A stretch of 64,000 nucleotides of DNA from Marinoscillum furvescens DSM 4134 (lineage in GTDB: Bacteria > Bacteroidota > Bacteroidia > Cytophagales > Cyclobacteriaceae): NCBI RefSeq assembly GCF_003386095.1, contig NZ_QREG01000011.1, positions 62,001 to 126,000 on the forward strand, in the 5' to 3' direction. The first letter of the stretch is position 1. Each line of letters opens with the position of its first letter. A program made the translations under genes and the position numbers. A model generated the notes under the pieces. It searched no databases. It saw nothing but the letters and a program-made list of their open reading frames with translations, and was not told where the DNA came from. This document shows positions 20,651-32,759 of the stretch, in pieces.

Positions 20651-23600
20651 CTAGGTGTCCTGCCGGTCCAGTGATTGGGCATATTTGGACGGCAATACTT
20701 TGTATTCTTGCTTGAAGTATTTGGTAAAATATTTCGGATTGTTGAAGCCTACTTTATAAGCAACCTCAGCTACACTTAGCTGGCTTTTTTCTAAAAGCGC
20801 CGCTGCTCTCTTTAAGCGTATCAATCGGATAAACTCGATGGGAGACTTACCTGTGATCTCCAAGGTCTTTTTGTAGAGTTGCCCCCTACTCACAGCCAGC
20901 TCCCTGCTGAGTTCCTGAACCGAAAAATTGGCATTGGAGATATTTTCCTCTACTATGGCAATGGCCTTTTCTATAAACTTTTCATCCAGAGACTTGATTG
21001 CAATCTCAGATGGTTTGGCCACAATCCGATGTTCAGATGCATGGATTTGCTTCTGAAGTTGAATAGCTGATTTAATGCCCTGTATTAGAATTTCAAAATT
21101 GAAAGGCTTCGTAATATACTCTGTGGCTCCGGCCTCAAATCCTTCAAGTTTTTGATCATCTGAATAATGAGCGGTGAGCAAAATAACCGGAATATGTCCT
21201 GTTCGCGGGTCGCGCTTTATCTTTTGACAAAGCTCAATACCTGTCATCACAGGCATCATAATATCGGTTACCACCAGATCTGGCTGCTTGTCCATTGCCA
21301 GTTTCCAGGCTTCTTTGCCATTTGGTGCCTCATAGATGTTATAAAGAGCTTTTAGGTTATCTCTTAGGTAAAACCTAAAATCCTCATTGTCATCTGCCAG
21401 CAGAATGGTTGGGCAGTTTTCCTGATGCACTTCTGGTTCGATCACGGATTCCTGACTGTTGACTATCTGTGTGGTTTCAATTTCCTCCCTATGCTCTAAA
21501 AGTCTTTTGAGTGGTAACTCAAAGATGAACTTGCTACCTTTCTCCACTTCACTTTCTACCCAAATTTCACCATGATGCATTTCTACAAACTCTTTCGAAA
21601 TCGAAAGCCCAATTCCACTACCGTGATTTAGGTTAAATGAAGCATTGTCTACCTGAAAAAACCGATTAAAAACTTGTGCTTTGCGCTCCTGAGGAATACC
21701 TATACCGGTATCTCTTACTGCAAAGCGAATGGTATGTACTCCTTCTTTTTGGGCTACCTCATCGATCTCAACAGCTACCTTACCCTGAGGGTGTGTAAAT
21801 TTAAACGCATTGGATAAGAGGTTAAACATCACTTTTTCTAGCTTATCACGATCAAATCGGGTGAAAAATTGAGGAACGGATGATTCAAAGCTCAAGTGAA
21901 TGTGGCGTTCACTTGACAGGTCTGTAAACGAGTCTACGATACTCTTCATGAAAGCGATAATATCACCAGATGCCAATGACAAACGATGCTGATTGGCTTC
22001 CATTTTACGAAAATCCAACAGTTGGTTGACCAGATTGAGTAAGCGGCGGGCATTTCTATGAATCAGCTCATAATGCACCTTTTTTGCTTCATCCTCAGTG
22101 CTTTTCATCAGCCTCTCTATTGGTGTAAGGATCAGCGTAAGTGGTGTGCGAAACTCATGGCTGATGTTGGTGAAAAATTTGATTTTCATCAGATCCAGTT
22201 CGTGTAGGCGCTTTGCTTCCAATTGCTCCTGAGCCACTTTGGCTCTAAACCGCTCTTTATTGATGATGACTCTGCGAGTGAAGATTAGCGCCAGAGCAAA
22301 TACGAACATATAGATTACGTAGGCCAGAGGTGTTTCCCAAAAGGGCGCCAAAACTGTGATGTTTAGTGTTTTTGTTTCACCACTCCACATGTGACTTTGG
22401 TCAGTAGCCATCACCTCAAACGTATAACGACCCGGGTCAAGATTGGTGTAGTTTACCCGATGTATATTAGGGTCTGTCACCCACTGATCATCAAACCCCT
22501 TTAACCGATACTTATAAACCGTATTTTCATTTTGGTAGTAATTGAGTGCTGTAAACTCTATGGTAAATGAGTTTTCAAAATGTTTAAGTGTAATTGCTGA
22601 TGTTTGGTTGAGGCCATCTGCAAACCACTCTCGGCCATTGTACCACTCGCCAGACCTAATGCGGTGATTGGAGATGTAAAAGTCCAGAAATACCAGTTTA
22701 TTTTCCTCATTGGTAAACTGTACTTGCTCCGGATCAAAAATATTGAGACCGTTGCTGCCACCAAAAGCCAAATGCCCTGACTGCAACTTGAGCGCAGAGC
22801 GTTCATTGAACATTTCGCCTTGCAAACCGTCAGATAAATCAAAGTTTTCGAAAATCCTGAGGCTGTCATCGGTAATGGTCAGTTTAGACAGGCCTTTGAA
22901 GGTGCCAAACCACATATCGCCTGAATCATCCTCCAAAATCGAAGAAATGATATTGTCTGGCAGCCCGTCTTCTTTGGTAAAGGTCTCAAACTGCTGTTTA
23001 TCCTTATCAAAACGGTTTAGGCCATACATAGTACCTACCCACATGGTGCCATCGGAAGCACAATAAATGTCTAATACGGAATTGTTGCTAAGTGAGCCTT
23101 CTTTGCTTTCGTCCTGTAGGATGTGGCTGAAGGTCTGCGTTTCTGGATGAAAAATCTCAATACCATAGCCTGTACCCACCCACATGCGGCCACTTCGATC
23201 CTCGCTAAATGAGGTCGCATAGTTCGATTTTATCGTGCCGTTCTCGCGGTTAAACTCATAGATTTTTTGAAATGCACTATCATAAACATTGACTCCTCCC
23301 TTTAAGGTCCCTAACCAAAGCCGGTTTTTCGAATCAAGGTAAAGCTTCCATACGCTATCACCAGAGGGTGAATTAGGATCATCTTTTTGGTGCCTATATG
23401 TAGTGAATTTTTGGCCATCAAAGTAATTGAGCCCTCCCATGTAAGTACCCATCCAGATGCCCCCATCTGCTGCAGGAGATAGACTCACCACAATATCTGA
23501 GCTCAAACTATGCGGGTCCTGAGGGTCATGCCGATAGGTAGTAAAGGAACCGGAGCGGCGATCAAAACGATGTAGCCCAGCCCCATCCGACCCGAGCCAA

Positions 23601-24709
23601 AGGGTATGTTCATCTGCTTGCATAATCGCTAGTAGATCGTTGGCTTTTGGTGATCGGGCATCTACATTCTTATAAAAATTGAAATTTACTGACTTAGGTG
23701 AAAAATAATTGACTCCTCCCTTATTGGTACCTATCCACACGAGCTCCGATTTGTCCTTGTAGATAGAAATGACCGAATTGATACTTAGTGAATTAGGGTC
23801 AGAAGTATTATTCCTGATGGATTGTATAGTTTGTTGCTGATCATCTATAATCGTGAGTCCTCCGTGATCCACCCCTATGATTACCCTTCCCGCCTGGTCT
23901 TGGATGATACCACTGACTAGTGTGCTACCCAGTACGTCTGCATCATAGTGTTTGCAGCTACTCGTTTCAGGAGAAAACCGACACGCACCAAAAGGGTATG
24001 CTTCGCTGTAAAACCAAAAATCTCCGGCATTGTCAATAAAGGTTTTGAGCTCACTTTTTCCCTGTAAGTGTTCCGGATATTTGATGAAAGTTGTTTTTTG
24101 TGGATCGCCAGTATCAATCAGCTCAATACTGCCATTCATATGCGTAAGTGCAATATTTCCTTTGCCATCTAATGCAGCAGAAACTACGTCCCGATATGCC
24201 CCGCCATAGTGGTAAATGGTGTCCTGGTCTGACAGATAGGTCTTCACTCCCAGGTTTTCGATGATAAACCAGTAATTACCATGTTCGTCCTTTATGAGGT
24301 CTGTGAGGTTATAATCATCTATTCGCAACTGAATAATCAAGTCCTGAATGTTGATAAACCGTTCCTGAAAGACATCATAAGCAAAAACGCCATAGTTTGG
24401 CTTGATCCACATGTGGCCTTCGGGACCTTCTTTCATCCAAAAGATATTTGGGTTACTCAAGGCAAACTGATTGTCTTCATCAGGCTCAAATACTTTGATC
24501 ATACTGCCATCATAGCGATTGAGACCTGACGGGGTCCCGAACCAAATAAACCCAAGTTGATCCTGATAAATGCTGTTGATTCGATTGTGCGAGAGTCCGT
24601 CTTTACTATCCAAATGCTCAAATCGGATTTGCGAATGCTGTCCGTGGCATACTATGGCAAGCAAAACAAAAAACTGAACCAGGATTTTTTGCAAAATGGG
24701 TCTCATCAC
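20651..24709 (-). CDS. hybrid two-component system sensor-regulator (HTCS)
   Basis: A 1352-residue one-protein signalling system. A signal peptide is followed by a periplasmic region of about 14 beta-propeller strands (Reg_prop repeats such as DQLGFIWFGTPSGLNRYDG), a Y_Y_Y domain near 700-785 and one membrane segment near 800. In the cytosol come a HisKA domain (FTNISHEFRTPLTL, phospho-His), a HATPase (DTGIGIPQE, GSGIGLSIS), a receiver domain near 1098-1223 (phospho-Asp in VVTDIMMPVMTG) and an AraC-type HTH at about 1240-1345 (SVAEVAYKVGFNNPKYF). Such proteins bind an oligosaccharide in the periplasm and activate the adjacent susCD operon. It sits between the acetylesterase gene and susC. Confidence 0.96.
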   Translation of the reverse strand: MMRPILQKILVQFFVLLAIVCHGQHSQIRFEHLDSKDGLSHNRINSIYQDQLGFIWFGTPSGLNRYDGSMIKVFEPDEDNQFALSNPNIFWMKEGPEGHMWIKPNYGVFAYDVFQERFINIQDLIIQLRIDDYNLTDLIKDEHGNYWFIIENLGVKTYLSDQDTIYHYGGAYRDVVSAALDGKGNIALTHMNGSIELIDTGDPQKTTFIKYPEHLQGKSELKTFIDNAGDFWFYSEAYPFGACRFSPETSSCKHYDADVLGSTLVSGIIQDQAGRVIIGVDHGGLTIIDDQQQTIQSIRNNTSDPNSLSINSVISIYKDKSELVWIGTNKGGVNYFSPKSVNFNFYKNVDARSPKANDLLAIMQADEHTLWLGSDGAGLHRFDRRSGSFTTYRHDPQDPHSLSSDIVVSLSPAADGGIWMGTYMGGLNYFDGQKFTTYRHQKDDPNSPSGDSVWKLYLDSKNRLWLGTLKGGVNVYDSAFQKIYEFNRENGTIKSNYATSFSEDRSGRMWVGTGYGIEIFHPETQTFSHILQDESKEGSLSNNSVLDIYCASDGTMWVGTMYGLNRFDKDKQQFETFTKEDGLPDNIISSILEDDSGDMWFGTFKGLSKLTITDDSLRIFENFDLSDGLQGEMFNERSALKLQSGHLAFGGSNGLNIFDPEQVQFTNEENKLVFLDFYISNHRIRSGEWYNGREWFADGLNQTSAITLKHFENSFTIEFTALNYYQNENTVYKYRLKGFDDQWVTDPNIHRVNYTNLDPGRYTFEVMATDQSHMWSGETKTLNITVLAPFWETPLAYVIYMFVFALALIFTRRVIINKERFRAKVAQEQLEAKRLHELDLMKIKFFTNISHEFRTPLTLILTPIERLMKSTEDEAKKVHYELIHRNARRLLNLVNQLLDFRKMEANQHRLSLASGDIIAFMKSIVDSFTDLSSERHIHLSFESSVPQFFTRFDRDKLEKVMFNLLSNAFKFTHPQGKVAVEIDEVAQKEGVHTIRFAVRDTGIGIPQERKAQVFNRFFQVDNASFNLNHGSGIGLSISKEFVEMHHGEIWVESEVEKGSKFIFELPLKRLLEHREEIETTQIVNSQESVIEPEVHQENCPTILLADDNEDFRFYLRDNLKALYNIYEAPNGKEAWKLAMDKQPDLVVTDIMMPVMTGIELCQKIKRDPRTGHIPVILLTAHYSDDQKLEGFEAGATEYITKPFNFEILIQGIKSAIQLQKQIHASEHRIVAKPSEIAIKSLDEKFIEKAIAIVEENISNANFSVQELSRELAVSRGQLYKKTLEITGKSPIEFIRLIRLKRAAALLEKSQLSVAEVAYKVGFNNPKYFTKYFKQEYKVLPSKYAQSLDRQDT

Positions 24710-24761: not shown

Positions 24762-26642
24762 TCATAGTTGTTGCTGGAAAGGCACAGCGGGTAGTCCGTT
24801 TGCATTGTAAAGCGAAACCTCCGGGTTGTCAGCCCAGCCATAGCGCACATACTTTGGCGTAGTGATCTCATCGCTCCATACTACTACCTGATTGTCACTT
24901 ATTTTGGCTTCAGCCCAAACATACTTACCATCGGCACCAGCCAAAGCAAAGCCCTTCACAGGCCCATTGGAAATCAATCCATTCCCTACATAGTCATAGC
25001 TAATGACAAGTCTATTGCCCGACATTGTATGGGCTTTGTAAGTAGGGCCACTATGGATAAGAGCTTCACCAAAGGCCACATTTCGCGCAGCAAGCCAAAG
25101 TCGCTCTCCCACATCTCGCTTGTTTCGTGGATGTATATCTAGTGCATCCCCTATATCCAAGGCCACGGCCATGCCAGTCTTAGGCAATTGTAGCACCTGA
25201 CTTTGTGCTTCTCTAAGTGCTGCCCACTGACTCTCCGAGGGCTCGGGTTTCCTTTCCATAAAATTAGCTAACTGAACAAACAAAAATGGAAACTCTCCTT
25301 GTCTCCAGGCGATCCGCCAGCTTTCAATCATTGTTTTGAAAAGCTCATAGTACTGGTCTGGCTTGTCGGCATTGCTCTCTCCCTGATACCAGATGACACC
25401 TTTTATGGTGTAGCCAGCTATTGGAGCAATCATTGCATGATAAATCATTCCTGGCAGCCAGTTATATCGCTTTACAACAGGCATAGGTGGCTCCACCTGA
25501 TTACTGAAAAGCCAATCTCCTGAGAGGTCCATACGCTCGCTTCCCACCTCTAAATACATGGCTCCTGGTTTACCTACATACACCTTATTGTCCCAATCGT
25601 TGATGCATCGAATAGCTATCACATTATCCCCTTCTCTCAACACATTTTCCGGGATTTTTAACACAGGGGTGTCATCCTGCCAGGACTCTCGGCCCACCAG
25701 TTTGCCATTCACAAAATAGGTCGCAGTTTTGGTCACATCTCCGAGAAATAATGAAGATTCGGCGGTGTTTTCCAGACTGATATGTTTCCGCAACCAGACA
25801 AAATCTGTCAATGCCTCTTGATTAGGCAATGCTACCTGCTGCCAGTTGGAATCGTTGTAACCTGGAAGCTGAGTACCTGTTTTTAAGAAGGAATGTTCAT
25901 CGCCAATTCTTCGGTATTTGGTTTCATTTCGCTCATTGTTGGCACGAATACTATCTGACCAGTTTGCTTTAGGATCTAAAATCTCTTTTGCCGCCAATTC
26001 ATAGCCTGGCACGCCTACCAACCTTGAAGCGGGGGTCCAGGCCTCGGCTGGAGTACCACCCCAGTTGCTTTCTATGATGCCCACGGGCACATCTTTCTCT
26101 AAATGATTTTTCTTGGCAAAAAACCAGGCAACAGCAGAAAAGTGCTCACTGGTCTCTGGGTTGGCGATTTTCCATTCACCACCATTAAAGGATTGTTGTG
26201 GAGAAGACCCTATTTGATGCGGAACCTTGAAAAATCGAATCTGATTATAGCTCGAATTGGCAACTTCGCTTTGCCAGCCATCTACATTTCCATTGAGTGG
26301 CCATTCCATATTCGATTGTCCACTAGCAATCCATACATCGCCAAACCAGACATCTTTTATAGTTGATCGGTAATCTGTACTTTCTATAACTATTTGGTAA
26401 GGCCCTCCTGCCCCATGTGCCGGGTATAATACTTCCCATTTTCCTGATTTGTCAACGACAGTATTCACCGTTATTCCATCGACACTCAAACTAATCTTTT
26501 CTGAAGGCTTTCCGGTTCCCCAAAATCGTACTAGATGATCTCTTTGCAACACCATATGGTCCTGAAAAAGCAGATTCAACGACACTTGCCCATTAGAAAC
26601 AGCAGCGATGCATGCAAATACGAGAAATAGGAGTTGTTTCAT
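24762..26642 (-). CDS. SGNH carbohydrate acetylesterase (sialate O-acetylesterase family)
   Basis: A 626-residue exported esterase (signal peptide MKQLLFLVFACIAAVSNGQ). The SGNH block I is WIASGQSNMEWPL with the nucleophile Ser, block III-like sequence is GVIWYQGESNADKP, and a catalytic Asp-His lies in ALDIGDALDIHPRNK. Between them, about residues 255-380, is a jelly-roll insert of GH2-like sugar-binding type (YFVNGKLVGRES, GDNVIAIRCINDWDN). The family removes O-acetyl groups from sialic acids or from plant polysaccharides. Given GH26 and GH9 nearby, deacetylation of glucomannan or another hemicellulose is more likely than a sialic acid role; that is inference from context. Confidence 0.88.
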   Translation of the reverse strand: MKQLLFLVFACIAAVSNGQVSLNLLFQDHMVLQRDHLVRFWGTGKPSEKISLSVDGITVNTVVDKSGKWEVLYPAHGAGGPYQIVIESTDYRSTIKDVWFGDVWIASGQSNMEWPLNGNVDGWQSEVANSSYNQIRFFKVPHQIGSSPQQSFNGGEWKIANPETSEHFSAVAWFFAKKNHLEKDVPVGIIESNWGGTPAEAWTPASRLVGVPGYELAAKEILDPKANWSDSIRANNERNETKYRRIGDEHSFLKTGTQLPGYNDSNWQQVALPNQEALTDFVWLRKHISLENTAESSLFLGDVTKTATYFVNGKLVGRESWQDDTPVLKIPENVLREGDNVIAIRCINDWDNKVYVGKPGAMYLEVGSERMDLSGDWLFSNQVEPPMPVVKRYNWLPGMIYHAMIAPIAGYTIKGVIWYQGESNADKPDQYYELFKTMIESWRIAWRQGEFPFLFVQLANFMERKPEPSESQWAALREAQSQVLQLPKTGMAVALDIGDALDIHPRNKRDVGERLWLAARNVAFGEALIHSGPTYKAHTMSGNRLVISYDYVGNGLISNGPVKGFALAGADGKYVWAEAKISDNQVVVWSDEITTPKYVRYGWADNPEVSLYNANGLPAVPFQQQL

Positions 26643-26650
26643 AGGTTGGA

Positions 26651-27793
26651 TTATTTGAGTGCTTTTCCTGATTTGTACGGATTGTTCATATCCCGCTCAA
26701 AAAATGTCTTTTCGTGTTCCTCGAATTTAATAAAATCGGCGACTGAAGGGTGAGACGGGTATGGCGCATAGTGATGGGTGGTGTTGGCATTGCGCCACAC
26801 CAGCACCCAGGCTATCGCAATATCGTTTGCCAAAATAGGGTCAAGCAACACATCTGTAAACCACTTTTCATTGGTCACCCCTTCCAAACCTGTTTCAGAA
26901 AGCGCCGCTACTTTGCCTCGCTCACGAGCGATCTCAGTGATCAATTCCAGACTTTCTATAAAGTATTTTCGCTGCAACTCTGGGCTGTCACTTCCTCCAA
27001 TTCTACCCACATCGCCATAGTTATCCAAACCTATTATGTCCACGTACTCATCACCCGGATAGCCATAGAAATAAGTCGATTTTGCCAGGCTATCCATTTT
27101 CCATCTACTGCGATCTGGAGAAAATGCATACAGCAAGTGATGGATGTCTTTCTCGTTTTTCAGATAATCTACAGTGAAGCGATACAGCTCAATATACTCT
27201 TCTTCCGAGCAATTACCTTTTCCCCACCAAAACCAGTCACCATTATGCTCATGCCAGGGTCTGAAAATGACTGGAATACGCTTAAACCAACCCACTCGCA
27301 ATTGATCCAGCCAGGCTGCCACCAGGTTCAGTTGCTGCTTAAACTCCTCGTGCTTGCTTCCACCAGGAAGTAAATCGCTTACAGAGGGTGTCTTATCCCA
27401 GCTATTGCCACCGGTAGAGAGGTTATCCAGATGCCACGAAATGGTAGTTATACTCCCCATCCGGTAACTCTGCTTGATCCACCGCTTCATATTCTGAAAT
27501 CGGACATCATCCAGATTCGCATCCAAATCCATCCTACTACCCAGGTCCCATCCTATTACAGCTGGGTATGTACCCACAGTTTCTTTTACATCAGATCTCT
27601 TCTTCTCTGCTTTCCATTTCACCCCATATGCCAAATCGTCCTGATGTCCAAACATAAATCCCTCTTTAGCTATATGATGTAGGTTTAGTAATAAGCTTTT
27701 AGTTTCACGGGTTGCATCCAGATCGATAGGTGTCTGAGCAAGTGTTTGTTGGATTAAAATAGTAAGAGCAAATAGACCAAAGATGTGTTTCAT
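26651..27793 (-). CDS. GH26 beta-mannanase
   Basis: A 380-residue GH26 enzyme when started at the ATG at 27793, where a signal peptide begins (MKHIFGLFALTILIQQTLAQ); a start at 27820 would add nine residues before the signal peptide and overlap a hairpin. The TIM barrel has the acid/base Glu in FRPWHEHNGDWFWWG and the nucleophile Glu in AALSETGLEGV, with the early FGHQDDLAYG motif. GH26 enzymes mostly cut beta-1,4-mannan. The stop is 8 bp before the acetylesterase start, so these two form an operon leading into the HTCS gene. A structured leader of about 370 nt lies upstream. Confidence 0.92.
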   Translation of the reverse strand: MKHIFGLFALTILIQQTLAQTPIDLDATRETKSLLLNLHHIAKEGFMFGHQDDLAYGVKWKAEKKRSDVKETVGTYPAVIGWDLGSRMDLDANLDDVRFQNMKRWIKQSYRMGSITTISWHLDNLSTGGNSWDKTPSVSDLLPGGSKHEEFKQQLNLVAAWLDQLRVGWFKRIPVIFRPWHEHNGDWFWWGKGNCSEEEYIELYRFTVDYLKNEKDIHHLLYAFSPDRSRWKMDSLAKSTYFYGYPGDEYVDIIGLDNYGDVGRIGGSDSPELQRKYFIESLELITEIARERGKVAALSETGLEGVTNEKWFTDVLLDPILANDIAIAWVLVWRNANTTHHYAPYPSHPSVADFIKFEEHEKTFFERDMNNPYKSGKALK

Positions 27794-27810: not shown

Positions 27811-27840
27811 CGAAAAACAAGAGTCGGCTATAACCGACTC
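27811..27840 (-). promoter_or_regulatory. terminator-like hairpin just before GH26
   Basis: On the minus strand GAGTCGG, a 6-nt loop and CCGACTC (27840-27821) are followed by TTGTTTTTC, and the GH26 start codon comes 17 nt after that tail. It is too close to the gene to end an unrelated transcript, since the upstream gene already has its own terminator at 28167-28200. A leader attenuator is the simplest reading. Confidence 0.55.
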
Positions 27841-28166
27841 TCTTAACCTATGAAGAATGAAGTGATACCTAAATAATTTGGTATGGAGTAATTATACTAG
27901 CTACACGGAGGAAGGAGAAATCAAAAGACAAATGATACCCATAAAATGATCATACACCGCCAAAGGGCTCTCAATAGGGTGTTTTTCCTTTGGTGACCTT
28001 GTAAAAAAACTCTGTGAGTTAAGATTCAAAACCATTAAATTTTGCTGCATTCTATGTGCTGATTCAAAGCCACAAATAGAAAAGCAGCAAGCTTGTAGTG
28101 ATGAAATTCGTTCCCGTGCTATACAGTAAAATAGCCCTACAAGATAGAGTAGATGTGCTGCATAAA
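27841..28166 (-). other. non-coding, stem-loop-rich leader of the GH26 operon
   Basis: No credible gene lies here; the one open frame of fair length starts inside a terminator and has no family resemblance. Several stem-loops are visible: a nested one at 28042-28090 (TTGCTGC/GCAGCAA outside, TTCTAT/ATAGAA and GTG/CAC inside), AACTC-TGT-GAGTT at 28008-28020 followed on the minus strand by a T-run, CCAAAGG/CCTTTGG at 27960-27993 and ATACC/GGTAT at 27865-27884. It could be a regulatory leader RNA or a decayed repeat element. Confidence 0.45.
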
Positions 28167-28200
28167 TAAAAAGCCAATTGGAGTGCTCCAATTGGCTTTC
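28167..28200 (-). terminator. terminator of the large surface-protein gene
   Basis: A perfect 14-bp stem (28170-28183 with 28186-28199; core GCCAATTGGAG) with a 2-nt closing loop begins 27 nt after the stop codon and is followed by TTTATTTATG on the minus strand. Confidence 0.92.
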
Positions 28201-28226: not shown

Positions 28227-31200
28227 TTATCTCTTGATTATTTTATGTGTCTGACTTTTCGATTCGCTAAGGATATTGAGTAAGTAAATACCTTCGCTTA
28301 ATTCGGAAAGATCCAATTTGATAAGCTTGGAGTCGTTCGAGTGAGATGAAATGACCACACGCCCGTTCATATCTACAATAGTGATATTAGCCGATTGTAA
28401 GAGGTTGATTTCCACGAAATCATTGGTTGGATTAGGGGAAATTCTAATCTGCTTTTTAGCGTTTAACACATCAGCATTTTCAACTTTGAAATCTATGCAG
28501 TCAGAAATAAATGAACAATTATCTAGTATTGTTCTGACCGCATAGCTTCCAGAAACAAGTGGAACGAAGGTGGCGCTTATTTCCCCCTCTATTTCTTGAT
28601 CAGACGCACAATCAATCCATTGATAAGTGTCTGCAAGTGTTTCTGTGGAGATTTGATTATCAGTTTGAGTTGTTTCAGGCGTAGCGTTTATTATTACAAC
28701 CTCGGTGATACTCGTACTATCACAACCATTCGCTGCACCTCCTGCAAAAACATCAGTAACTGTCTGCGACTCGTAGTAAGTTGTTCCATTTATAGAAATA
28801 CTCCCACAAGCAATAACGGGGTCCTGGGTGCTTACCACCGGTTCTAACACAATGATTTCTGTAATGCTCGTACTATCACAACCATTGCTTGCTTGTCCAG
28901 CAAACACCTCTTCCACTGTTTGTGAGCTATTATAAGTAACTCCTTTGTACGTTACACTTTCACAACCTGAGATGGCAGGTTGCTTTGCAATAACTGGCGC
29001 TAATATGGTCAGCTCTGTGATGCTGGTGCTATCACAACCATTCGCTGCACCACCAGGGAAAAGATCGGTAACTGTCTGCGACTCATAGTAAGTAGTTCCA
29101 TTGATAGAAGCACTCCCACAAGCAGTAACGGGGTCCTGGGTGCTTACCACCGGTTCTAACACAATGATTTCTGTAATGCTCGTACTATCACAGCCATTGC
29201 TTGCTTGTCCGGCAAACACCTCTTCCACAGTTTGTGAGCTATTATAGGTAAGTCCTTTGTATGTTACACTTTCACAACCTGTGATGGCAGGTTGTGTAGC
29301 AACAACTGGCGCTAATATGGTTAACTCTGTAATGCTAGTGCTATCACAACCATTCTCTGCACCACCCGGAAAAAGATCGGTAACTGTCTGCGACTCATAG
29401 TAAGTAGTTCCATTAATAGAAACACTCCCACAAGCAGTAACGGGGTTCTGGGTGGTTACCACCGGTTCTAACACAATGATTTCTGTAATGCTCGTACTAT
29501 CACAGCCATTGCTTGCTTGTCCGGCAAACACCTCTTCCACAGTTTGTGAGCTATTATAAGTAACTCCTTTGTATGTTACACTTTCACAACCTGTGATGGC
29601 AGGTTGTGTGGCAACAACTGGCGATAATATGGTTAACTCTGTGATGCTGGTGCTATCACAACCATTCGCTGCTCCACCCGGAAATAGATCGGTAATAGTC
29701 TGGGATTCATTATAAGTTGTTCCATTGATAGAGACGCTACCACACGATGTGATTGGGTCTTGCGTAGCTATCACCGCTTCGTTTACTGTGAGGTTTACTG
29801 TAACCAATGAATCACAACCAGTCTGAGAAGTATATATTTTCTCATAAACACCTGTCGTAGAAAGGGATTGCCCATCAAAATCAAACGATTCTCCATGACA
29901 AAGCACTTGCTCTATGGTCTGCTGTGGCTCTGGCAATAGTGTAAATGTAAGATTCACCGTACTGTCACAGCCGTATGAAGAACTCAAGGTTTGCGTGTAG
30001 TTACCAGATTCTGATAGAGCCAGCGACCCAAAAGCATATGGTACATCACTAGCACACCGGGTAACTTCGATGGTTTCATCATAGATTATCCCTTTTTGAA
30101 TACTGAGCACCACAACGGAATCACATCCCGTACTACTCACAAAATACTCATAGTAGTTTCCAGCTTCTGCAATAACTTGACCCCCAAAATCAAAGGTTTC
30201 TTCTCCGCATAGCGTTTGGCTCACTTCTGTAAAATCATATGATTGATAATTAGCCTCGGTAATTTCAAATTCAGGAATAACCGTACCTTCACATTGATCG
30301 TAGTGATCATCCACGCCATCCAAATCATGCCAGGCATTTGGGTCATTCACAGCTACATCCTCGCGATTAATTACTCCATCTTCGTCATCATCGTAATAGG
30401 TTTCAGATCCATAGTCCAATATCCATTCCTTGCCTGCATTGTCCCATCGGTATACATAGTGCCTAAGCTTTGTACCATTGCTATCAAATAATTTCTCCCA
30501 TTTTTCCTGCCCGATAAAACTCTCAGTACCCGAGTGATAATAGTACTTTTCATATTCCGTCTGGTTTCCATAGCTGTCATAGTTAAATTTGTATTTATTC
30601 CCACTCTGAAGCGCCCAGACATCAGTACTCCAGGTATAATTCAAAATGAGGGTATCCTTATAAAACCGATCATAGGCCTTTACATTTCTTTGGATAGGGT
30701 CAAACTGTTTTGTAGACAGGTCTAAGGTGGAGTAAATCCGCTCGGTGTACAATGACGTATCTTCCAAATAAGTATAGTCGTACTTCCTTATTTGTGTGGT
30801 ATCCCACTTCATTTCAGATTCATTCCAGACTTCTGCTTTGTAGCGAATTTGAACATTATATTCATTAAACTCCTGACTGGATCTTGTTCCTGTATTGGCC
30901 CAGTCCCCAATAATATCGTCCCAGACATAATTGATAGTTTCAGTGTTGTTTCCTAACTCATCATATAGATTCACGACTTTTGATAGACCAGAAAGTTCTT
31001 CACCTATAGAAGCACGTGAATAAATTTCTTGTAAAGTATGTCTGATTCCATCATAGTACTCGTAGTTCTCTGTTTTATTCACATACCAGCTTTCCGTACC
31101 CGTATCCCAACCGTAACTTGTTTTGGTAAGTACTTTGCCTTCGGAGTTATAGGTGGCTTCATACTTTTGACTACCTACAAAATCCTGTATGGAACTGTTG

Positions 31201-32759
31201 TAGGTATAGTATTCAAACGATGTATTCAGCTTTTGCTCATTGGTGGTAAGGGACCTTTGATACCCATCACTACCACTCCAACTGTCTGTGGAGCTATCCC
31301 ATGTATAGTTCAACTCAAGGGTTTGAAAGTCACCATCAAAAACCTTCTCCCATTTTTCACTACCGTATAATTTACCCAATCCTGAATGATAAAAATAGGT
31401 TTCGTGAAGAATCAGATTACCAGACTCGTCATATGCTGATTTTGTTCTGTTTTTCACATACCAGTCACTAGCATCAGTATCCCAGGAATACCTCTCATAC
31501 AGTAATTGTTGACTTACCGAATCGTATTGATATACTTTCTTATCAAACGGAATATAAGCGTCACTACTTGAGTTAAAAGTTTGTCTTTCATAGAGCGTCA
31601 TGTTGTCATTCGCATCATAAGCATAAGTGAATTTATTGCCGCTTTGCTGATCATATGCGCTCCCATTCCATGTGTAGCGCTCATTTAGGGTTTCATTGCT
31701 CCATTCGTCATAGTCGTAAACATACTTTTCAAGTGGACTCCACTCCATGTCCACTTCGTTCCATTCAAACTTTTCTTTGACGACAAGGCTATCTACATCA
31801 TTATAAGTGTTTACTGTTCGCTGACTATTGGCAGCTACCCAGGTGCTGTGGGTATCATCCCAGGAATAGGTTATGTAATCAGTAAGGTTTCCTGAAGCAT
31901 CATATTCCCTAGTCCATTTACTCACTCCCACCCAAATAAGCTCGTCACTATTCCAGTTGTAGCTTTCGTTTAGGGTTTGTTTACCTTCAGAAGTAGCTGA
32001 AGTTGTCTTAGCGTCATTGAGCCACTCTACTCCTGTCCATCTGGTGATTACCGTAGTAAGTGTATCTGCACTTCTAGTATAGGTAGTCTGTATTGAGTCC
32101 CTCCAGTTTTCATTATTCTCATCACCATAGGCTACCAATCGAAGGATAAGGTCACTCATGGTATTGTCACTGTAAGTGGAAGTGGTTTTCGTATTGGTAT
32201 AGTTCGTATAATCACTGCCACACCTAAATACATCCGTACAATCAAAGTCATCCACCCTGGAGTAAACCTCTACAATGGTACCCTCAGAATAATTCGTCGT
32301 GGTATATCTGTTTAACCGATCTGTCTCCCGAGTATAGCTACCCCTATCATAGTCATAGTCGCTTTGCCATTTATATAGCACATTTCCCTCTACATTTTCA
32401 TATCGAGAAGTTCTACGATCGTAACCACTTCCACTACTAGTATAGTGATAAGTACGAAACATGTCCATGTCAAAAAATTCAGAATAGCTGACATTTTGCT
32501 GCTCACGAGATGATTGATTTCCTGAATCATCATAGGTGTAATAATATCTGTAGGACAAATCGTAGCTCTTGGAATCGTCATCAAATAAATAAACTAACTC
32601 CTGTTCGAGTTGGTCCATATCATTAAAGACATACTCATAACGATAGCGTGTAGAGTCGCTTGAGTTGAAAGTGAAAAGACTATCAGGCTTTTGTGCAATG
32701 CCGAAGTGAAAAGTGAAAAATAACACAGCAAGGCATGTAATTCTTGTGTTGAGGATCAT
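28227..32759 (-). CDS. large type IX-secreted surface protein with repeats
   Basis: A 1510-residue protein with a signal peptide (MILNTRITCLAVLFFTFHFGIAQ). Residues about 130-780 are imperfect repeats of 35-40 residues rich in Tyr, Trp and Asp, with YDxxGN and YxWDxxxxxW patterns reminiscent of YD repeats. Near 785-820 is an Asp-rich calcium-binding stretch (YYDDDEDGVINREDV). Residues about 835-990 have Cys-containing CDSxV repeats, followed by seven 52-residue modules (about 990-1350). The last 75 residues form a type A C-terminal sorting domain (ISPNPTNDFVEI, MNGRVV, LSEGIYLLNI, HKIIKR), so the protein leaves through the type IX system and is attached to the surface. Adhesion is plausible; no catalytic domain is visible. 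Confidence 0.85.
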   Translation of the reverse strand: MILNTRITCLAVLFFTFHFGIAQKPDSLFTFNSSDSTRYRYEYVFNDMDQLEQELVYLFDDDSKSYDLSYRYYYTYDDSGNQSSREQQNVSYSEFFDMDMFRTYHYTSSGSGYDRRTSRYENVEGNVLYKWQSDYDYDRGSYTRETDRLNRYTTTNYSEGTIVEVYSRVDDFDCTDVFRCGSDYTNYTNTKTTSTYSDNTMSDLILRLVAYGDENNENWRDSIQTTYTRSADTLTTVITRWTGVEWLNDAKTTSATSEGKQTLNESYNWNSDELIWVGVSKWTREYDASGNLTDYITYSWDDTHSTWVAANSQRTVNTYNDVDSLVVKEKFEWNEVDMEWSPLEKYVYDYDEWSNETLNERYTWNGSAYDQQSGNKFTYAYDANDNMTLYERQTFNSSSDAYIPFDKKVYQYDSVSQQLLYERYSWDTDASDWYVKNRTKSAYDESGNLILHETYFYHSGLGKLYGSEKWEKVFDGDFQTLELNYTWDSSTDSWSGSDGYQRSLTTNEQKLNTSFEYYTYNSSIQDFVGSQKYEATYNSEGKVLTKTSYGWDTGTESWYVNKTENYEYYDGIRHTLQEIYSRASIGEELSGLSKVVNLYDELGNNTETINYVWDDIIGDWANTGTRSSQEFNEYNVQIRYKAEVWNESEMKWDTTQIRKYDYTYLEDTSLYTERIYSTLDLSTKQFDPIQRNVKAYDRFYKDTLILNYTWSTDVWALQSGNKYKFNYDSYGNQTEYEKYYYHSGTESFIGQEKWEKLFDSNGTKLRHYVYRWDNAGKEWILDYGSETYYDDDEDGVINREDVAVNDPNAWHDLDGVDDHYDQCEGTVIPEFEITEANYQSYDFTEVSQTLCGEETFDFGGQVIAEAGNYYEYFVSSTGCDSVVVLSIQKGIIYDETIEVTRCASDVPYAFGSLALSESGNYTQTLSSSYGCDSTVNLTFTLLPEPQQTIEQVLCHGESFDFDGQSLSTTGVYEKIYTSQTGCDSLVTVNLTVNEAVIATQDPITSCGSVSINGTTYNESQTITDLFPGGAANGCDSTSITELTILSPVVATQPAITGCESVTYKGVTYNSSQTVEEVFAGQASNGCDSTSITEIIVLEPVVTTQNPVTACGSVSINGTTYYESQTVTDLFPGGAENGCDSTSITELTILAPVVATQPAITGCESVTYKGLTYNSSQTVEEVFAGQASNGCDSTSITEIIVLEPVVSTQDPVTACGSASINGTTYYESQTVTDLFPGGAANGCDSTSITELTILAPVIAKQPAISGCESVTYKGVTYNSSQTVEEVFAGQASNGCDSTSITEIIVLEPVVSTQDPVIACGSISINGTTYYESQTVTDVFAGGAANGCDSTSITEVVIINATPETTQTDNQISTETLADTYQWIDCASDQEIEGEISATFVPLVSGSYAVRTILDNCSFISDCIDFKVENADVLNAKKQIRISPNPTNDFVEINLLQSANITIVDMNGRVVISSHSNDSKLIKLDLSELSEGIYLLNILSESKSQTHKIIKR
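28700..29780. repeat. 312-bp tandem super-repeat of two 52-codon modules
   Basis: Seven 156-bp modules in two alternating types lie inside the surface-protein gene. Type A has GCESVTYKGVTYNSS and FAGQASNG; type B has CGSVSINGTTYYES and FPGGAANG; both start CDSTSITE. The motif CGTACTATCA recurs at 28869, 29181 and 29493, exactly 312 bp apart. Copies are nearly identical in DNA, which points to recent duplication or conversion. Confidence 0.9.

Follow-up and report, generated by a model that had tools for sequence, protein, structure and literature searches.

What the DNA ahead of a GH26 operon does is the question raised by this locus. In the window (the whole 64-kb stretch of DNA that was analysed) the GH26 gene and the esterase gene behind it are preceded by a leader that begins downstream of a gene for a surface protein with a Por secretion tail (Table 1). 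The initial annotation had read this leader as an attenuator or riboswitch with at least four stem-loops, the last one terminator-like, and had named a decayed repeat as a second possibility. Its view that the upstream surface-protein gene has a terminator of its own was borne out by the terminator-like hairpin at 28200-28169. The window lies on contig C11 of its genome, G000.

Table 1. Features of the GH26 locus, in window coordinates.
Feature	Position	Strand	Details
Upstream gene of the leader	28227-32759		Pfam Por_Secre_tail
Terminator-like hairpin of the upstream Por-secretion-tail gene	28169..28200	(-)	14 pairs, loop of 4
Nested stem-loop, borderline	28036..28092	(-)	z -2.23; as stable in 17/500 shuffles
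Direct repeat, copy 1	28061..28071	(-)	GGCTTTGAATC
Direct repeat, copy 2	28023..28033	(-)	GGTTTTGAATC; 38 nt from copy 1
Possible GH26 promoter -10 box, TATAAT	27891..27896	(-)	Found by eye; absent from promoter-scan output
Degenerate copy of the junction motif TACTTCTTCATA	27849..27860	(-)	Reads TCATTCTTCATA; 2 mismatches
Terminator-like hairpin before GH26	27819..27842	(-)	10 pairs, loop TATA
U-rich tail GTTTTTC	27812..27818	(-)	T5 at 27817-27813
GH26 gene, probable mannanase	26651..27793	(-)	380 aa; Pfam Glyco_hydro_26, E 2.7e-46
SASA-type carbohydrate esterase gene	24762..26642	(-)	Next gene of the operon after GH26
Hybrid two-component (HTCS-type) regulator gene, downstream	20651..24709	(-)	Reg_prop, Y_Y_Y, HisKA, HATPase_c, Response_reg, HTH_18

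The last hairpin of the leader proved to be genuine and slightly longer than first noted (27842-27819 instead of 27840-27821), with a folding energy of -14.8 kcal/mol and a U-rich tail. The GH26 ATG is located at 27793, 25 nt from the stem and 18 nt from the end of the tail at 27812, which corrects the 17 nt given earlier. When the whole leader was folded, five of the six checked pairs of this hairpin reached probabilities of 0.997-1.0 and the outer A-T pair 0.54. Segment 27850-27812 was more stable than all 500 of its shuffles (z -4.7), and the stem score ranked 20th (tied with the 19th) among 616 gene-upstream regions sampled from the window's own genome. The hallmark of an intrinsic terminator, a stable GC-rich stem followed immediately by a U tract, is present in 27842-27819 and its T5.

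The remaining part of the leader folded unremarkably. Without both terminators (28166-27845) it reached -66.9 against a shuffle mean of -63.4 (sd 5.15; z -0.69), and 47 of 200 shuffles were as low; the stem 28000-27940 was at chance level (z -0.12; 204 of 500 shuffles as low). The number of stem-loops pointed out earlier is thus not unusual, with the nested loop as a borderline case that may represent a DNA-level (operator-like) element or chance. The z of -2.69 obtained for the whole leader seems largely due to the terminal hairpin, because the leader without terminators folds like its shuffles. The direct repeat GGYTTTGAATC (= GG[CT]TTTGAATC) has two exact copies in the 64-kb window, both in the leader, and four copies with up to one mismatch against 3.31 expected; it is possibly a site of the regulator.

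A search of the window against Rfam gave no match at gathering score. Sub-threshold matches over the leader (E up to 10) reached at most 21.4 bits, and AniS, the top-scoring family over the leader's own hairpin, 17.1 bits, the gathering score being 50 in both cases. Before the 3' arm of the hairpin is made, its 5' arm was predicted to pair elsewhere, with per-base probabilities mostly of 0.6-0.97 over five start points; one base stayed at 0.0-0.09 in all five, and three further bases at 0.24-0.45 in two of them. No conserved alternative partner (anti-terminator) for this arm was found by folding, as none had been seen by eye, and the complete hairpin dominates the leader fold. With no Rfam match at gathering score, no aptamer-like conserved domain (z -0.69), no match of the leader DNA in the genus relatives searched and a dominant complete hairpin, the riboswitch half of the initial proposal is unsupported and was rejected. 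The attenuator half is reasonable, because a terminator-like hairpin recurs before GH26 genes in relatives.

As a whole the leader is not a repeat: it occurs once in its own genome, the only further matches being the upstream terminator's self-complement and hits with E >= 0.19. Its DNA gave no match in five relatives of the genus. Short matches at E <= 0.1 occurred in 70 of 196 genomes of the family, the best (8.9e-5 over 36 nt) being taken as chance, so that conservation of the leader DNA across the family was rejected.

Upstream sequences of orthologous and paralogous GH26 genes were compared, 75 of 90 listed places being taken in and 15 left out, with the start of L018 set by hand. In the relatives of the genus, which we infer to be Marinoscillum, the GH26 genes have upstream of them a linear motif resembling UACUUCUUCAUA and, behind it, a hairpin that varies in sequence. 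The motif was selected after inspection of these upstream regions; with up to two mismatches it was found together with a hairpin scoring 20 or more in 6 of 10 regions of the genus and 2 of 65 from other genera, and with up to three mismatches in 8 of 10 and 3 of 65. Across two hundred shuffled motifs the mean count in the genus regions was 0.12 at the first and 0.81 at the second of these thresholds (maxima 3 and 5); in the others it was 0.08 and 0.63 (maxima 3 and 4). The counts for other genera are not significant, because they lie within the range of the shuffled motifs. Seventy-nine of 80 named loci had enough upstream DNA, and there the combination was found in the three loci of the genus only (0 of 76 others). 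Among 441 upstream regions of at least 100 nt from the window's own genome, motif (up to two mismatches) plus hairpin occurred once, and this one is the GH26 leader of the window. One record whose GH26 locus matches that of G003, a genome of the window's genus, is titled as a Rickettsiales bacterium (L312, PBTY01000017.1) and is probably a mislabelled metagenome-assembled genome.

One alternative is a plain intrinsic terminator or read-through brake acting with no regulator, either a relic or a constitutive partial terminator, beside which the window motif would be incidental. Terminator-like hairpins near start codons are no rarity here: 50 of the 441 upstream regions of this genome score 20 or more, the threshold for a strong hairpin. 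GH26 genes of other genera have a hairpin in 11 of 65 regions, mostly without the motif. Moreover, the motif class of the window (up to two mismatches) has 13 matches in 64 kb against 7.83 expected, which is not significant alone. Against this reading, the motif recurs before GH26 genes in the genus and at gene junctions of sister genomes. At L015 and L018 it is separated from the preceding gene's stop codon by 3 and 0 nt, and at L011-L013 the upstream gene is divergent, so the hairpin there cannot be its terminator and is part of a true leader element. The stems of L011 and L012 share a common layout with a G-C to A-T change on both sides; the other hairpins of the genus are unrelated in sequence. 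We regard a plain terminator as unlikely.

A second conserved block, close to GGTTCAAATGTTCACAAA, was found at L010-L013 in all four loci, 163-191 nt upstream of the GH26 ATG and 67-69 nt upstream of the motif, and is a possible operator of the regulator. The window does not have this operator in recognisable form: its best match has 7 mismatches, and a match at least as good is present in 391 of 500 shuffled leaders. The own-genome GH26 paralogue L014 (G000:C18:91712-92731), whose match contains one TAA, has a hairpin just before its start and lacks the motif.

The genome to which the window belongs has few copies of the element. The exact 12-mer was absent from 896 sampled 3' regions. Four of these regions held the motif with up to two mismatches plus a hairpin, against means of 0.35 and 0.32 (maxima 2 and 3) for shuffled motifs; the counts from 14 stretches of relatives, which were chosen for containing the motif or GH26 loci, are no test of this. 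TTCTTCA was not enriched ahead of 154 own-genome hairpins, and a general pre-terminator motif was not seen in this genome. The window copy was assigned to the element because it has a hairpin behind the motif and shares its layout with the orthologues. We take the element to be a feature of the sister lineage, or one that was partly lost in the window's species.

In the sister genomes G001-G004 all 48 sites of the exact 12-mer were classified: 32 are intergenic, 13 antisense inside genes, one antisense at a gene start and two sense inside genes. Within 120 nt after a same-strand stop lie 21 of the 32 intergenic sites, and 15 of these 21 have a strong hairpin behind the motif; when the GH26 borders L250, L253 and L268, from which the 12-mer was derived, are left out, the count is 13 of 18. 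The counts over the 21 sites are not independent because some of the sites are orthologous to each other, and the baseline is taken from another genome of the same genus: of post-stop positions drawn at random from the genome that contains the window, 65 of 573 and 35 of 322 had a strong hairpin. The 21 sites themselves showed one strong hairpin on their 5' side, and the other 27 sites gave two. In a control of 30 sites, one each from 30 other genomes of the family, none had a strong hairpin and 23 were antisense inside genes. On the opposite strand the motif occupied a comparable post-stop spacer at L242 and L392 only, against 21 sites in the main orientation; the bias is thus strand-specific, which supports action as RNA.

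The element varies between sites. Six of the 21 post-stop sites are without a scored hairpin, and at L265 and L260 the called frame of the following gene includes the motif. Tails behind the hairpins range from 8-9 T down to 3 T in 12 bases, which means that not all of these hairpins are canonical terminators. REP- or MITE-like dispersed repeats were rejected, as only the 12-mer and A/T-rich edges are common to the copies and the hairpins differ. The 9-mer ACTTCTTCA was rejected as a genome-wide marker; it is identical when reversed, which makes the reversed control uninformative, and the 30 loci inspected are mostly inside genes.

The flanks of 18 of the 48 sites were scanned with Pfam (16 upstream and 12 downstream proteins), and the 28 proteins were mostly products of polysaccharide-locus genes, SusC/SusD and glycoside hydrolases with GH3 among them. 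SusD flanks L251, L257 and L263, a TonB-receptor (SusC) barrel L266, and GH26 L250. Borders were found between GH92 and DUF4964-DUF5127 (L261), GH30 and GH5 (L246, L267), a PKD protein and GH16 (L241), CBM4_9 and a glucuronyl esterase (L252), and GH53 and GH2 (L265, with GH53 also in L260); L259 adjoins a DUF4961-alpha-amylase protein. Exceptions are L247 (dehydrogenase and UxaC), L243 (MscS channel) and L248 (a TIM-barrel match below cut-off and RDD). Among the SusD positions listed, at least one falls within 5 kb for at least 18 of the 48 sites, against 1.9 expected; at susD 3' ends in the genus the motif with hairpin was found in 2 of 30 (L197 and L208). The element is not GH26-specific, since most sister copies adjoin other genes. 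The initial suggestion of a decayed repeat fails for the leader as a whole, but the motif-plus-hairpin part belongs to a dispersed set in sister species. The same annotation had counted a multi-copy repeat unrelated to GH26 genes as evidence against its own reading; this was found by half, as the element is multi-copy in the sister species and mostly not at GH26 genes.

The element thus consists of the linear motif UACUUCUUCAUA and, 3-20 nt behind it, an intrinsic-terminator-like hairpin whose sequence appears free to change; it recurs with a strand bias and is associated with SusD neighbourhoods. A conserved single-stranded motif combined with free hairpin sequence points to recognition at the RNA level plus termination or end formation, and, together with the strand bias, favours a partial terminator with a trans-acting reader. 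Our preferred reading, to which we assign a probability of about 45%, is that 27860-27812 is a leader copy of this genus-level motif with a partial terminator, the motif being read by a trans-acting RNA or protein. In sister species the element is located just behind stop codons, at the gene borders of carbohydrate operons. The inferred partial terminator would set the amount of transcription that reaches the enzyme gene behind it, in the window GH26 with its esterase. The conserved single-stranded motif might be the site where a trans-acting RNA or protein affects the termination decision or the resulting RNA end; the existence of such a reader is our guess. The combination of motif and hairpin at sugar-operon borders suggests how such operons might be tuned.

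Discussion of polysaccharide-utilisation operons usually centres on transcription activators. A search of the openly accessible literature on such operon borders, made in general terms, yielded no description that we recognised as a motif plus terminator. A border motif tied to changing hairpins would, if true, give a handle on the unequal expression of transport and enzyme genes within one operon.

A leader- or junction-derived small RNA, that is a short terminated RNA whose motif serves as a single-stranded 5' seed for pairing with other mRNAs in the manner of FopS, was weighed as the next alternative. A single-stranded stretch followed by a Rho-independent terminator is described for FopS of Bacteroides thetaiotaomicron (PMC11697453), and 5'-, 3'- and intra-operonic sRNAs are present in this species (PMC7366714). 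In G000, G001 and G003 (L255, L269, L292) a conserved SusC-type gene (MKKYLLLGLS) has its start codon and 5' flank (TTGTAATAGTATGAAGAAGTATTTACTC) within the motif's complement, and the same bases surround the motif at L396 and L408 (G002, G004). However, complementary sites near gene starts showed no clear excess: with up to two mismatches all three gene sets fell within 40 shuffles. With up to one mismatch one set had 2 against a shuffle maximum of 1, and with up to three another had 145 against 128; the frequent Met-Lys-Lys starts could explain such excesses in single gene sets. For the pairing near SusC-type starts expected of a FopS-like sRNA, one SusC start fits and the set-wide counts just given show no clear signal. 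An sRNA directed against start codons is accordingly not clearly supported by the set-wide complementarity counts. Neither RRM_1 nor Hfq was matched in six genomes of the genus, and 13 junction loci gave no Rfam match at gathering score. We consider a small RNA of this kind improbable.

Alternatively, the hairpin could be an RNA stability or processing element, shielding either the downstream mRNA at its 5' end or the upstream mRNA at its 3' end, with the motif as a processing or binding site. Junctions with a weak or no U tract (L250, L261, L267, L268) suit stabilisers better than terminators, but long U tracts stand behind a last gene at L251, L257 and L266, and we hold this reading to be quite improbable. 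That the motif is a DNA-level site, part of a promoter or operator with the hairpin as a bystander, is very improbable: the constant 67-69 nt between the GGTTCAAATGTTCACAAA block and the motif at L010-L013, where the distance from motif to ATG varies, would be expected of a motif near the transcription start, but the motif lies mostly behind stop codons in one orientation, a second conserved box upstream of it was absent at the 21 junction sites, which also spoke against a promoter box there, and the GGTTCAAATGTTCACAAA block is unrecognisable in the window. A switch between the motif and the 5' arm of the hairpin found no support either: over 16 sites their pairing was no better than that of shuffled controls (of 300 controls each, 215 and 206 were as low).

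For the preferred partial terminator with a trans-acting reader, a lead to the partner was found at L242 (G002; reverse strand, ~1501) and L392 (G001; ~1501), where the reverse complement AGTATGAAGAAGTA lies within a stem-loop that is followed by a strong terminator. This stem-loop, a possible partner RNA, is located in the spacer before an alpha-1,3-glucanase-like gene, which is 47% identical between the two. In the predicted folds AGTATGAAGAAGTA is unpaired in L242, and in L392 part of it falls into a weak inner stem. As a genus-wide sRNA gene it was rejected, being found in only G001 and G002 of the four genomes covered (G000, G001, G002 and G005); it was absent from the spacers of the relatives seen from other genera, and in G000 and G005 the neighbouring protein itself was without a match. 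In its widest form, which we consider improbable, the proposal would be that UACUUCUUCAUA with a tunable terminator marks the borders of polysaccharide-utilisation operons in the Marinoscillum lineage and that one trans-acting reader, possibly an RNA displaying the complement AGUAUGAAGAAGUA such as these candidate stem-loops with terminator in the L242 and L392 spacers, determines read-through or the fate of the RNA in many operons together, with no Hfq or RRM_1 protein found in the searches.

Three known systems resemble the element in part. FopS are paralogous multi-copy sRNAs of B. thetaiotaomicron linked to the control of polysaccharide utilisation; nine of 14 are intergenic, four antisense and one 3'UTR-derived, and they have their own promoters, occur in Bacteroidaceae, are bound by the RRM protein RbpB and were deposited in Rfam (PMC11697453). 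The window copy and the sister sites share with FopS the multi-copy nature, the link to polysaccharide utilisation and the layout of a single-stranded 5' stretch plus Rho-independent terminator. In contrast to the mostly intergenic or antisense FopS with own promoters, the copies described here are located at gene borders and their hairpin sequences are unrelated. Whereas FopS has an RbpB-type partner, RRM_1 was found in none of six genomes of the genus at E <= 0.001 (the control in Bacteroides ihuae being positive), Hfq in none of the six, and Rfam, in which FopS was deposited according to its paper, gave no match at gathering score in the window and the 13 loci. Rfp18 of Flavobacterium psychrophilum is a trans sRNA predicted to pair in the fpp2-fpp1 intergenic region and to uncouple both genes, one sRNA region being predicted to serve all targets (PMC9723704). 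It is similar in that a Bacteroidota sRNA has its predicted site in the intergenic region of an operon. It differs in its targets, which are metalloproteases, in that the part of that report considered describes no motif-plus-terminator junction, and in that the partner sRNA here is a lead only (L242, L392). Finally, ordinary intrinsic terminators and partial-termination attenuators share with the element the stable GC stem, the U-rich tail and the position at an operon border or in a leader, but the element described here has in addition a conserved 12-nt linear motif ahead of hairpins that differ in sequence.
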